Notes under the pieces: model-generated
The model's database searches: none
What the model saw: only the letters and a program-made list of their open reading frames with translations
Told to the model about the DNA's origin: nothing
Assembly: GCA_009785325.1 (NCBI GenBank)
Contig: WQWN01000001.1
Location: 124,001 to 188,000, forward strand
Source of the DNA: Candidatus Saccharimonadota bacterium
Lineage (GTDB): Bacteria; Patescibacteriota; Saccharimonadia; Saccharimonadales; Saccharimonadaceae
Length of the DNA stretch: 64,000 nt
Direction: 5' to 3'
Shown: positions 47,096 through 52,064 of the stretch, piece by piece
Position numbering within the stretch: the first letter of the stretch is position 1
How the letters are laid out: each line of letters starts with the position of its first letter
Made by a program: the position numbers and the translations under genes

Positions 47096-47202
47096 GTCAC
47101 TTGATCCCCCGAAAAGAGTACTAATGTATGACATCAGGATGAGACTCGTGTTCGTACGTTGTTTTTGTGACGAGTATGTGCTAATGTTTGATACATAGAG
47201 TG

Positions 47203-48693
47203 CAAAAACCTAAACAAGGATTTGTCTGGTCTATGTTCCAAAAACAACTGCGAGAAAGAAAAATACACTTATTGGTCTGTGTGACGCTGGTTTTTACTGG
47301 CTTGCTTTTGGTTGGGGTTTTTACTGAAGACTCTGCTCTAGGTATTACGCCGTTTGGTGCGACGGTTGGTCATGTTGGACCGAATGCGACCTTTGCGCCG
47401 TGGTGGTGGCAGGATGATAATTCAAATACGGGTGTGGTAGAGGTGGGAGCTGGAAATATTCAAGGTATGCCAGCAGTTGGTGGTAATTATGCAGGATATG
47501 GTCCTTGGCATCTTTACCGGGACGATGTCACCAAGATTGTTTTTACAGACCCAAATAATACAGTCGGGCAATCTAATCTCTCTTCGTTATTTAGAGACCT
47601 ACCAAACTTAACTACGATAGAAAATATTAACTATGTAGACCTCAGTTCCACAAACTGGCTTTCGGGTATATTCCGAGATACACCTAGCCTAACAACAATA
47701 ACAGGAATAGAGGATTGGGATGTTGCGGGCGTGCAGCGTTTTTCGGCTATGTTTCGAGGAACAACCAGTTTAAAAAGTTTAGATGTGAGTAGCTGGGATG
47801 TGAGTAGCGCACAGCGTTTTGATAGTATGTTCCGAGACGCAGGACTCATGGAGATAATTGGACTAGATAACTGGGATACGAGCAGTGTGACATGGATGAT
47901 GTATATGTTTCGAGACACAACCGATATTACAAACCTAGACTTAGGTAGCTGGGATACGAGTAATACACAGCGTTTTGACAGTATGTTCCGAGACGCAAAT
48001 AGCTTAATAAGTCTAGATCTCAGCAGCTGGAGTCTCAACAGTGCAACGGTATCAGGTATGGCAAACATGTTCACAGGTGCAAGTTCTCTGGAAGTTCTCG
48101 TACTCGGAGATGACTGGGTGATGTTGAGTCCTAGCTCCGGTCTACCTGAAGTGCTGACTAATTCCGTGTTTACTGGTGTATGGCAAAATGTCGGTAGCGG
48201 TACGATACATAACCCGCAAGGTGTATTTAGCTATACATCCCCTGCCCTAATGGTAGGTAGTACTGGGGCTTCCAATACGTGGGTATGGGCTAGGTCGCCG
48301 CGCACAGTGGTTTTTCAAGCTGATGCAAATGGAGCGCTTGATTCTGCGTCTACACTATCTCATAGCGTGACAGTTCCTACAGGAAAGACTCTGAGTGAGG
48401 CAGGAATTTCTATCCCTATTCCAGTTCCAGAGCAAGGATATGAGTTTGCGCACTGGGTAAGTCTGGAGTATCCTGGGATTATATTTACATCGGTAGATCT
48501 GTTGGGTTGGCCAATTAGCCAAGATATTCATTTTATAGCGGTGTTTGAACCTATTAGTATACCTGACGTGCCAAATACTGGGCATGAGAAGCTAGGAATG
48601 GGAGCATATTCGGTAGGGTTAGTGAGTTTATTTGGCATATTGACGGTGGTCGCGCTGGCTGTTCGAGTTCGCATGAAGACTGCAAATAGATGA
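47203..48693 (+). CDS. BspA-like/DUF285-repeat surface protein with sorting-signal-like C-terminus
   Basis: Repeated LDxSSWDxSSxxxFxxMFRDA units; C-term IPDVPNTG-hydrophobic-RVRMK; start uncertain. Confidence 0.85.
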   Translation, partial: QKPKQGFVWSMFQKQLRERKIHLLVCVTLVFTGLLLVGVFTEDSALGITPFGATVGHVGPNATFAPWWWQDDNSNTGVVEVGAGNIQGMPAVGGNYAGYGPWHLYRDDVTKIVFTDPNNTVGQSNLSSLFRDLPNLTTIENINYVDLSSTNWLSGIFRDTPSLTTITGIEDWDVAGVQRFSAMFRGTTSLKSLDVSSWDVSSAQRFDSMFRDAGLMEIIGLDNWDTSSVTWMMYMFRDTTDITNLDLGSWDTSNTQRFDSMFRDANSLISLDLSSWSLNSATVSGMANMFTGASSLEVLVLGDDWVMLSPSSGLPEVLTNSVFTGVWQNVGSGTIHNPQGVFSYTSPALMVGSTGASNTWVWARSPRTVVFQADANGALDSASTLSHSVTVPTGKTLSEAGISIPIPVPEQGYEFAHWVSLEYPGIIFTSVDLLGWPISQDIHFIAVFEPISIPDVPNTGHEKLGMGAYSVGLVSLFGILTVVALAVRVRMKTANR

Positions 48694-50111
48694 GATTAGT
48701 TTTAGAGAAATTAGCAAAGACAGTGGACGGGATGAGGAGGTGGCAGGTAGCTATTCATTGTGTGTCGGTGGTTTTTGTAGCAACGCTAGGAGTGGTGGCT
48801 GTACTAGTTCTGGTATTACATGAAAACGAAGCTGAGCGAGAGGTGTTTGGGACAGATTCGATTTTGATTTACTCGGAGCGATATAATGTAAATGCGCGAT
48901 TCCCGATCACGGAGAATGAAGAATTTAACACCGGTATAGCGGCCGCGATAGAGGCGGAGATTGCGGAGTTTCGGGCGAGCGTGGATGGGTTTGCGAGTAC
49001 GAATTTCCCGTACGAGCTAAATATCGGGTATAGGGTTTATAGGAGTGGTAATTTGGCATCGATACGCTTTACGGTCTTGCGGTTTTTGGGTGGAGCACAT
49101 GCGACGGAGCAAAATTGGGTCTTTTATTACGACAAAGTGGAGCGCTTGGGTGTTGAATGGGAGGAGTTATTTAATGATAAAATGGGGACGCTTGAGAGAT
49201 TGTCGGAGTTGGCACACGTGGAACTAATGGCACAAAATCTGGTGGTGTTTAATGATTCTGAAGTGGCGAGAGGCTTGGAACCGAGGCGAGAAAATTTTGA
49301 GTTGCTGGTGTTTGATGAAAGTGGAGTGCGAGTGATTTTGGGGATTTATCAGGTAGCACCGAGAAGTACAGGGGTGATTGAACTAATACTAGGATATGAG
49401 GAGTTGAATGGGTTTTTGAATTATCCGCATACTGGAGAAGTCGAGAGCGAAGTAGTGGCTGTATTGGAGTCGAGTAACGAGCGGAGATTGCGAGATATAG
49501 AGGCACTACGTGGGCGACCTGTGATGATGCTGACTTTTGATGATGGGCCTGGTGGAGCAACAACGGCGAGACTACTGGACGAGTTGGCGAAGAGGGATGC
49601 GCGAGCGACGTTTTTTATGCTAGGAGAGAGGATGGAGAGGTTTCCTGAGATCGTAGTGCGAGTTTTTCTGGATGGACATACTGTAGCGCATCATACTTTT
49701 AGTCATAGAGACATGCGACGGATGAGTAATGAAGAGATCTGGGAAGAAAGAGATCGGACAAATGAATTGCTTAGGCGGACGCTTGGAGTGGAGAGTAGTT
49801 TCCTCAGACCGCCGTATGGGAGTTGGGATGAAAGAGTGCGAGAGGTAAGCGGGATGACCATGATAATTTGGGATGTTGATCCGAAAGATTGGAGATATAG
49901 AGATGCGGAAGTGATTTATCGTCATATTGTGGAATACACACGAGAGGGATCAATAGTGCTGGCGCATGATATTCACGAAAGTACGGTGGACGGTGTTGTG
50001 CGAGCGATGGATGAGTTGCTAGCTCGGGGTTATGCGTTGATTTCGCTGGAGGAGGCTGTGGAGCTGGGGTTGATTAGAGCTGATGGTAGGGTTTATTGGT
50101 CTATGAGGTAG
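48690..50111 (+). CDS. Polysaccharide deacetylase (NodB) with N-terminal TM and PdaC-like domain
   Basis: MLTFDDGPGGATT, TVAHHTFSHRD, SFLRPPYG, VLAHDIHEST. Confidence 0.92.
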   Translation: MRLVLEKLAKTVDGMRRWQVAIHCVSVVFVATLGVVAVLVLVLHENEAEREVFGTDSILIYSERYNVNARFPITENEEFNTGIAAAIEAEIAEFRASVDGFASTNFPYELNIGYRVYRSGNLASIRFTVLRFLGGAHATEQNWVFYYDKVERLGVEWEELFNDKMGTLERLSELAHVELMAQNLVVFNDSEVARGLEPRRENFELLVFDESGVRVILGIYQVAPRSTGVIELILGYEELNGFLNYPHTGEVESEVVAVLESSNERRLRDIEALRGRPVMMLTFDDGPGGATTARLLDELAKRDARATFFMLGERMERFPEIVVRVFLDGHTVAHHTFSHRDMRRMSNEEIWEERDRTNELLRRTLGVESSFLRPPYGSWDERVREVSGMTMIIWDVDPKDWRYRDAEVIYRHIVEYTREGSIVLAHDIHESTVDGVVRAMDELLARGYALISLEEAVELGLIRADGRVYWSMR

Positions 50112-50172
50112 TCTCTGTGGGGTTTTATCTCGCCTGCTCTTTTTGAGTGTGTATGTTAGAATGTGAAGAGTT

Positions 50173-50249
50173 GGGGCATTGGCGCAGTTGGCTAGCGCGC
50201 TTCCATGGCATGGAAGAGGCCATCGGTTCGAATCCGATATGCTCCACCA
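50173..50249 (+). tRNA. tRNA-Ala (GGC anticodon), CCA encoded
   Basis: GGGGCAT/ATGCTCC acceptor with G3:U70, GCGC D stem, CTTCC-ATGGCAT-GGAAG anticodon arm, ATCGG-TTCGAAT-CCGAT T arm; -10 TAGAAT upstream. Confidence 0.96.
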
Positions 50250-50344
50250 TTAGGCTCTTACTTAAACCCTAATTCATATATTTATGATAGACTCACAGTA
50301 GACCTACGAGTAGTCTCTGGGTAGTTTTCATCACAGACCAATAT

Positions 50345-50372
50345 TTGACTACCCCCCCCGACATGCTATTGT
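50345..50372 (+). promoter_or_regulatory. Promoter with C8 tract in spacer: TTGACT-N16(incl. C8)-TATTGT
   Basis: Direct reading of ttgactaccccccccgacatgctattgt. Confidence 0.6.
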
Positions 50373-50456
50373 TTAACTCATAGAGCGTGGAATCTCATAA
50401 AAACAGTTAGAAATCATATAAAATACTTAGTCTGCGAGAGAAGGATTCACTTTTCA

Positions 50457-52064
50457 ATGTGGATAACAAGTAAATTTAATAAGCTACTTATCCGACTACC
50501 TTTTGTAGTTGCAGTAGTGGTGGTCTCAGGTTTCTCAGCGCAGTCTCTTATTCTCAATATAATTAGTCCATCTGAAGTAGCTACAGCGTTATCTATTCAT
50601 TCTATTACTGCTGATCATGGGCCGACCGTTGGTGGAAATACTGTTACTATTACTGGGGATTTTGGGATACCTGATATTCCTCTGAATATCGTGCAAATGG
50701 TGACTGGAGCCGACCACGCAATTACCCTCGATAGTGAAGGTAGGATTTTTGCATGGGGAAGTAACTGGGGTGGGCAGCTCGGTAATGGTGTTAATTTTGA
50801 CAGCAACGTCCCAGTTGAAGTGGATATGACTGGAGTGCTTGCTGGGCGAGATATTGTACAGATCGCAGCTGGAAATGGTTCTTCTTTTGCTCTAGATAGT
50901 GAAGGTAGGATTTTTGCATGGGGAAGTAACTGGGAAGGTGCACTCGGTAATGGTACGAATATCATCAGTAATAATGTCCCAGTTGAAGTGGATACTTCCG
51001 GGGTACTTGCTGGCAGGCGTATTGTGCAAATTGCAACTACGTGGCACTACACACTAGTCCTAGACAGTGAAGGTAATATATTTGCGTGGGGACAGAACAA
51101 TAACGGGCAACTCGGCAACAATACAAATATCAGCAGCAACGTCCCAGTTGAAGTGGATATGACTGGAGTGCTTGCTGGGCGAGATATTGTGCAAATAGTA
51201 GCTGGAGGTAGCCACTCTCTCGCCCTAGATAGCGAAGGTAGGATGTTTGCATGGGGAAGTAACAGTTCTGGAGAGCTCGGTAATGGTACTTTTTCCTTTT
51301 TTGGCAGCAACGTCCCAGTTGAAGTGGATATGACTGGAGTGCTTGCTGGTAGAAATATTGTACAGATCGCAGCTGGAGGTAACCACTCTTTCGCCCTAGA
51401 TAGTGAAGGCAGAATTTTTGCATGGGGAATCAACTGGGGTGGGCAGCTCGGTAATGGTGTTAATTTTGACAGCAACGTCCCAGTTGAAGTGGATATGACT
51501 GGAGTGCTTGCTGGTAGAAATATTGTGCAGGTAATGGCTGGCGTAGCTCATTCCCTTGCTATAGACAATGAAGGTCAAGTCTTCTCTTGGGGGTTAAACA
51601 TGGAAGGTTCGCTTGGTAATGGTGTTAATTTTGACAGCAACGTCCCAGTTGAAGTGGATATGACTGGAGTGCTTGCTGGTAGAAATATTGTGCAGGTAAT
51701 GGCTGGTTGGCATTCTTCTTTCGCTATAGATAGTGAAGGTAATGTATTTGCTTGGGGAGATAACTCGTTTGGTCAATTCGGTAACAACACAAATATGAGT
51801 AGTAATGTGCCGGTTGTCATCACCAACTTCGGACAAGGCCTAGTTAATTCACTAGAACTCTCCGTAACTCTCGGCAACCTCCCCTGCACAGATGTTCGTA
51901 TCATCAACTCAAATACAATCACATGTATAGTACCAGCTCATCCAGCAGGCACTGTAGACGTAGTAGTTAATACACTACATGGATCAACTACTCTATATCA
52001 GGGATATACTTATATAGATATTCCTGATGTGCCGAATACGGGGCATTACCGCGTACGTAATTAA
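50457..52064 (+). CDS. RCC1-repeat surface protein ending just after a PNTG motif
   Basis: Repeated IFAWGSNxxGQLGNGTNxxSNVPVEVDMTGVLAGRxIVQIAAG; IPT/TIG-like domains; ends IPDVPNTGHYRVRN*. Confidence 0.88.
   Translation: MWITSKFNKLLIRLPFVVAVVVVSGFSAQSLILNIISPSEVATALSIHSITADHGPTVGGNTVTITGDFGIPDIPLNIVQMVTGADHAITLDSEGRIFAWGSNWGGQLGNGVNFDSNVPVEVDMTGVLAGRDIVQIAAGNGSSFALDSEGRIFAWGSNWEGALGNGTNIISNNVPVEVDTSGVLAGRRIVQIATTWHYTLVLDSEGNIFAWGQNNNGQLGNNTNISSNVPVEVDMTGVLAGRDIVQIVAGGSHSLALDSEGRMFAWGSNSSGELGNGTFSFFGSNVPVEVDMTGVLAGRNIVQIAAGGNHSFALDSEGRIFAWGINWGGQLGNGVNFDSNVPVEVDMTGVLAGRNIVQVMAGVAHSLAIDNEGQVFSWGLNMEGSLGNGVNFDSNVPVEVDMTGVLAGRNIVQVMAGWHSSFAIDSEGNVFAWGDNSFGQFGNNTNMSSNVPVVITNFGQGLVNSLELSVTLGNLPCTDVRIINSNTITCIVPAHPAGTVDVVVNTLHGSTTLYQGYTYIDIPDVPNTGHYRVRN
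50743..51800 (+). repeat. In-gene tandem repeats (~165-172 bp period) encoding RCC1 units
   Basis: Near-identical blocks agcaacgtcccagttgaagtggatatgactggagtgcttgctgg at about 50801, 51134, 51306, 51470 and 51642. Confidence 0.9.

Follow-up and report, generated by a model that had tools for sequence, protein, structure and literature searches.

Can the slippage of a short cytosine tract turn a promoter up or down in a lineage of very small bacteria? The question is raised by a site in a 64,000-nucleotide stretch of DNA (the window) from a Candidatus Saccharimonadota bacterium of the order Saccharimonadales. At positions 50345-50372, a promoter-like sequence with eight consecutive cytosines (C8) in its spacer precedes a gene for a predicted secreted protein with RCC1 and TIG domains. 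An earlier note on this DNA had named it a candidate phase-variable promoter. From the sequence comparisons described below, slipped-strand phase variation of this C-tract promoter emerges as the best reading, and it is held with moderate confidence.

The string reported for the site, TTGACT-A-C8-GACATGC-TATTGT, is exact in its letters, its coordinates and its 16-nt spacer. The spacer (50351-50366) is made up of an A, the C8 at 50352-50359 and GACATGC, and TATTGT occupies 50367-50372. A TG sits one base 5' of the -10 hexamer, which makes it an extended -10 element. The promoter is intergenic, between a tRNA-Ala gene and the RCC1/TIG open reading frame (ORF), and lies 84 nt upstream of the latter. 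The -35 and -10 elements thus flank a homopolymer of at least about 8 bases, as they do in promoters of the opc/porA type, and the 16-nt spacing is within 1-2 bases of the 17-nt peak of ordinary promoters.

Taken alone, the window site is no better than chance. Promoter-like sites in 48500-52000 number 4, against 6.4 +/- 2.2 in shuffles, and there are 2 C7 matches against 5.1 from dinucleotide shuffles, i.e., fewer than expected. No other C/G run in the window reaches a length of 7, in line with the earlier remark that no other run of eight was noticed, but as an isolated argument this uniqueness has no weight. The isolated site has no significance of its own, and only a comparison with paralogues and relatives can carry the argument.

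The first comparison is within the window's own genome, a 76% complete draft of 678 kb in 7 contigs (genomes of the order span 0.4-1.6 Mb). When it was searched with the promoter region, a near-copy was found elsewhere (97% identity over 31 bases), TTGACTA-C8-GACATGCTAATGTTTA, also 5' of an RCC1 gene. In all, the genome carries nine dispersed RCC1/TIG paralogues, each with a homologous promoter and leader. Their spacers measure 16 nt in three cases (pure runs of C8, C8 and C9), 17 nt in four and 18 nt in two. Two pairs of similar paralogues differ by an insertion or deletion within the tract itself: TTGA-C9-GAAGAGTGC against TTGACTCCTCTCCCGGAAGAGTGC, and TTGACTA-C8-GACATGC against TTGACCCAGTCCCCCCGACATGC. 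Tract length, therefore, differs between homologous promoters as far as paralogues are compared; none of the genomes searched was of the same genus and could serve for a strain comparison. These alignments mark the paralogue spacer as a place where length has changed during the history of the family, without giving a switching rate. Eight C/G runs of at least 8 were found in this genome, and four lie in promoter spacers, namely those of three RCC1 promoters and of one other promoter (G9). Of the remaining four, one lies within an RCC1 gene, one at what looks like a frame break in a gene adjoining an RCC1 copy, and two in other coding regions.

The second comparison extends to the order. The pattern TTGAC-N(0-8)-C8-N(4-12)-TAnnnT was searched in 293 genomes, with the reversed pattern as a control. 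It gave 12 matches (11 distinct sites) in 8 genomes, and the control gave none. A search across the family, for which the pattern had C7 and an extended -10, yielded 20 matches against 4 in its control. Although the isolated site is non-significant, the reversed-pattern control rejects chance as a full explanation. One genome, G088, holds at least 7 promoters of the form TTGACA-N(2-3)-C9/C10-N(7-8)-TAnnnT with 19-20 nt spacing, most of which have a good ORF 30-90 nt downstream. No orthologous promoter aligned at the promoter when these loci were compared with genus mates. A promoter pair from G081 and G008 has spacers of 17 and 16 nt and a common GAGGGTGGCCAYAGAG flank, and the proteins encoded downstream are weakly alike (27% over 73 aa).

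The third line of evidence is the distribution of spacer lengths. A census was made of TTGAC promoters with a good -10, assigned by consensus, over a range of 15-22 nt. Ordinary promoters show a sharp peak at 17 nt (28 of 52), which is consistent with the earlier claim that one extra C would bring the window promoter to a 17-nt optimum. Promoters with at least 7 C or G in a row are spread over 15-22 nt, with a mode of 19 and 1 of 18 at 17 nt; as the census sequences were partly collected by poly-C patterns, these poly-C counts inform spacing and not frequency. The difference at 17 nt is significant by Fisher's test (p 0.0002), also with related promoters collapsed (0.004) and among extended -10 promoters (0.0004). 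Length-unstable spacers, caught at one moment, would be expected to show such a spread.

How would such a switch work? The element would be a sigma-70-type promoter of the RCC1/TIG secreted-protein gene. Slipped-strand mispairing would alter the C tract, the distance between -35 and -10 would shift around 17 nt, and transcription would change with it. The present C8 gives a spacing of 16 nt, one short of the preferred 17; this promoter is therefore probably weak or switched OFF, and a ninth C would turn it ON. The scheme presumes that the element is an active promoter, that tract length changes in the population and that 16 versus 17 nt affects output. Because each paralogue has its own promoter, the paralogues could switch independently, and cells would then carry different mixtures of secreted beta-propeller proteins.

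Several observations weigh against such switching. The tracts of six of the nine paralogues, those with 17-18 nt spacers, are interrupted and mostly pyrimidine-rich. Eight cytosines are near the lower limit of length for a tract that slips quickly. A terminator scan from the tRNA-Ala gene to the RCC1 gene gave no terminator-like site, so that read-through is possible; it could give steady transcription and blunt the switching. The extended -10 may let the promoter tolerate changes of spacing. Finally, the G088 poly-C promoters stand also before genes with no evident surface role: their ORFs include a phosphoribosyltransferase-like one (a weak Pfam match) and several without a Pfam match. The class therefore extends beyond surface proteins. 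On balance, the proposal of a candidate phase-variable promoter is partly supported, namely by the nine homologous C-rich promoters (16-18 nt), the recurrence in other genomes of the order with a control of zero and the spacing away from 17 nt, while the covalent surface anchoring of the product, taken up below, is not supported.

The alternative that survives best, though it is considered unlikely, is that these are fixed weak promoters, pyrimidine-rich by descent, in which C-runs arise from mutation bias and spacing drifts slowly with no switch within the population. The interrupted tracts of the six paralogues, hence stable, fit this explanation. So does the common descent evident in the near-identical promoters of the window and C5, and the abundance of C9/C10 runs in many positions in genus g32 (249 C8 windows in G088) indicates a general bias in some lineages. 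Against it, such runs are few in the window's genome and half of them are in spacers, the reversed control is zero in 293 genomes, and ordinary promoters do not show the spacing away from 17 nt. It is more doubtful still that the C tract is bound by a regulator, or forms a compact A-like helix needing longer spacers, with a length that serves regulation instead of switching. The common skeleton of the G088 promoters, TTGACA-N(2-3)-C9/C10-N7 with 19-20 nt spacing, fits such an arrangement; yet spacing ranges over 15-22 nt across genera, the three pure poly-C RCC1 spacers of the window's genome are shorter than 17 nt, and outside the core promoter the paralogue alignment shows no operator that is conserved. 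Least probable of all is that the tract length is a sequencing or assembly error and the true spacer an unremarkable 17 nt, for although the genome is an incomplete draft in several contigs, homopolymers commonly cause indel errors and a neighbouring gene is apparently split at a G9 run, the tract recurs in separate loci and genomes, so that its existence is no error and only its exact length could be.

Slipped-strand switching of the promoter is thus retained as the preferred reading, and the features of the locus to which it applies are collected in Table 1. Two other candidates for the region were tried and rejected. For an RNA element or attenuator, Rfam gave no credible match besides the tRNA, and an operator or palindrome across the -35 (50335-50350) is not kept among the paralogues.

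Table 1. Features of the C8 promoter and the RCC1/TIG gene, in window coordinates.
Feature	Position	Strand	Support or occurrence in paralogues
tRNA-Ala (GGC), 5' of the promoter	50173..50249	+	ARAGORN, Rfam
-35 hexamer, TTGACT	50345..50350	+	TTGAC retained in 8 of 9 RCC1 paralogue promoters
C8 tract within the 16-nt spacer	50352..50359	+	Tract of C8 or C9, or an interrupted one, at the equivalent position
Extended -10, TGC-TATTGT	50364..50372	+	TGCTAATGT in 7 paralogues
Conserved early-leader sequence, TAGAGCGTG	50381..50389	+	Upstream alignment of the 9 paralogues
Purine-rich GAGAGAAGGA, probable ribosome-binding site, 11 nt 5' of the ATG	50436..50445	+	GCGAGAGAA common to several paralogues
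RCC1/TIG secreted-protein gene, 535 aa	50457..52064	+	8 paralogues elsewhere in the genome
VPNTGH motif, followed by 5 residues and the stop	52029..52046	+	Similar ending in 9 of 9 paralogues

What does the gene behind the promoter encode? The ORF has 7 RCC1 repeats (PF00415, E 4e-79, over the family cut-off) and one TIG domain. All nine paralogous proteins begin with a hydrophobic N-terminus, which is followed by a conserved A-L-S stretch, and by sequence they are probably exported. In each of them the stop comes 3-6 residues past VPNTGH or a variant of it, and the short polar tails differ. When the nine were tested for an LPXTG-type anchor, a transmembrane helix with a basic tail after VPNTGH was found in none, whereas the neighbouring DUF285/PARCEL protein (47188-48693) has a full sorting signal with a membrane helix and a basic tail. 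Covalent anchoring of the RCC1 proteins to the surface by the usual route is not supported. The earlier description of the product as a surface protein, therefore, holds for the hydrophobic N-terminus and the VPNTGH motif and fails at the membrane anchor, as the ORF ends 5 residues past the motif. Given such an ending, the 'surface' label is uncertain for the whole family.

Some observations concern the surroundings of the RCC1 copies. A 27-nt sequence that covers the 3' end of the tRNA-Ala gene and the adjoining bases downstream (window 50244-50270) recurs inverted at G000:C5:33004 and C5:37404 in the window's genome, and these inverted copies flank the RCC1 copy at C5:35516 on either side. 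The RCC1 copy at C4:19246 is also 3' of tRNA genes. A tRNA-associated insertion of RCC1 genes is possible. A C9/G9 run occupies G000:C5:35069-35077 (L088:1270-1278), at a distance of about 440 bp from an RCC1 promoter. Two overlapping minus-strand frames at this position (…KNEADV-TGG and GGDRVLQSVD…) resemble one gene split by a frameshift; the break looks like a coding-tract switch or an assembly indel. The G9 spacer mentioned above, TTGACAAAAT-G9-TTGTGTTATTGT, is at G000:C2:51119-51149 (L094:5120-5150), where the poly-G is in a 19-nt promoter spacer; a GAPDH gene lies upstream of it and the gene of a predicted membrane protein downstream.

Long C runs are also seen outside promoter spacers in the order. 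Genus g32 is rich in C9/C10 runs, with C8 matches numbering 249 in G088, 136 in G112 and 123 in G031, compared with 11 in the window's genome, and many of the C9/C10 runs seem to be located in coding frames. At L173, L185 and L190 (G008, G081), C9 runs lie about 35 nt 3' of TGATATAAT, i.e., in 5' leaders and not in spacers. In G084, an RCC1 gene has a C9 run near its start (L112:1398-1406). With the run at C9, the RCC1 ORF is not in frame with an ATG that lies upstream and has a good leader, so a translational switch is possible there.

Switching through a homopolymeric spacer is established for the meningococcal porA, fetA and opc genes (PMC2791445, citing Sarkari 1994, van der Ende 1995). 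Like them, the window promoter has a homopolymer of the ~8-12-base class in a sigma-70-type spacer of near-optimum length, 5' of a gene for an exported protein. Unlike those established switches, it is a predicted one, has an extended -10 and belongs to a nine-gene family in a Patescibacteriota bacterium. In the Vlp family of Mycoplasma hyorhinis, every vlp gene has a poly-A tract in its promoter region (PMC10502178). The RCC1 family is similar in being a multigene family of exported proteins with a promoter for each gene and, in some members, a promoter-region homopolymer. It differs in that the tract is poly-C, a pure run of at least 8 is present in three of the nine members and not in all, the genes are dispersed and not clustered, and the products are propellers and not lipoproteins. 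As for the protein, PilX2 of the saccharibacterium TM7x, probably of the same phylum, also carries an RCC1 beta-propeller on an exported, pilus-associated protein (PMC12206443), whereas the window protein, with its TIG domain and VPNTGH, showed no pilin feature. In the candidate phyla radiation, slippage-driven variation has been proposed for a hypervariable repeat gene of a Gracilibacterium; unlike the window spacer, that gene has coding 9-mer repeats, and the variation is in protein size (PMC6851277). In the literature collection searched, few papers name Saccharibacteria or the candidate phyla radiation together with phase variation, and judged by title and abstract none of them deals with promoter-spacer switching. 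The mechanism of the switch is already known, while the family member and the lineage appear to be new.

A wider proposal can be put forward tentatively, at less than even confidence: that lineages of this order run contingency loci, in which many genes, including the nine dispersed beta-propeller genes, have length-unstable poly-C spacers, by which an ultra-small organism with few regulators would randomly diversify its exported proteins. Should the spacers really switch, these ultra-small cells, whose life is probably spent attached to other bacteria, would have a cheap way to vary their exported proteins cell by cell. This, if true, would bear on how such symbionts keep pace with changing or resistant hosts.
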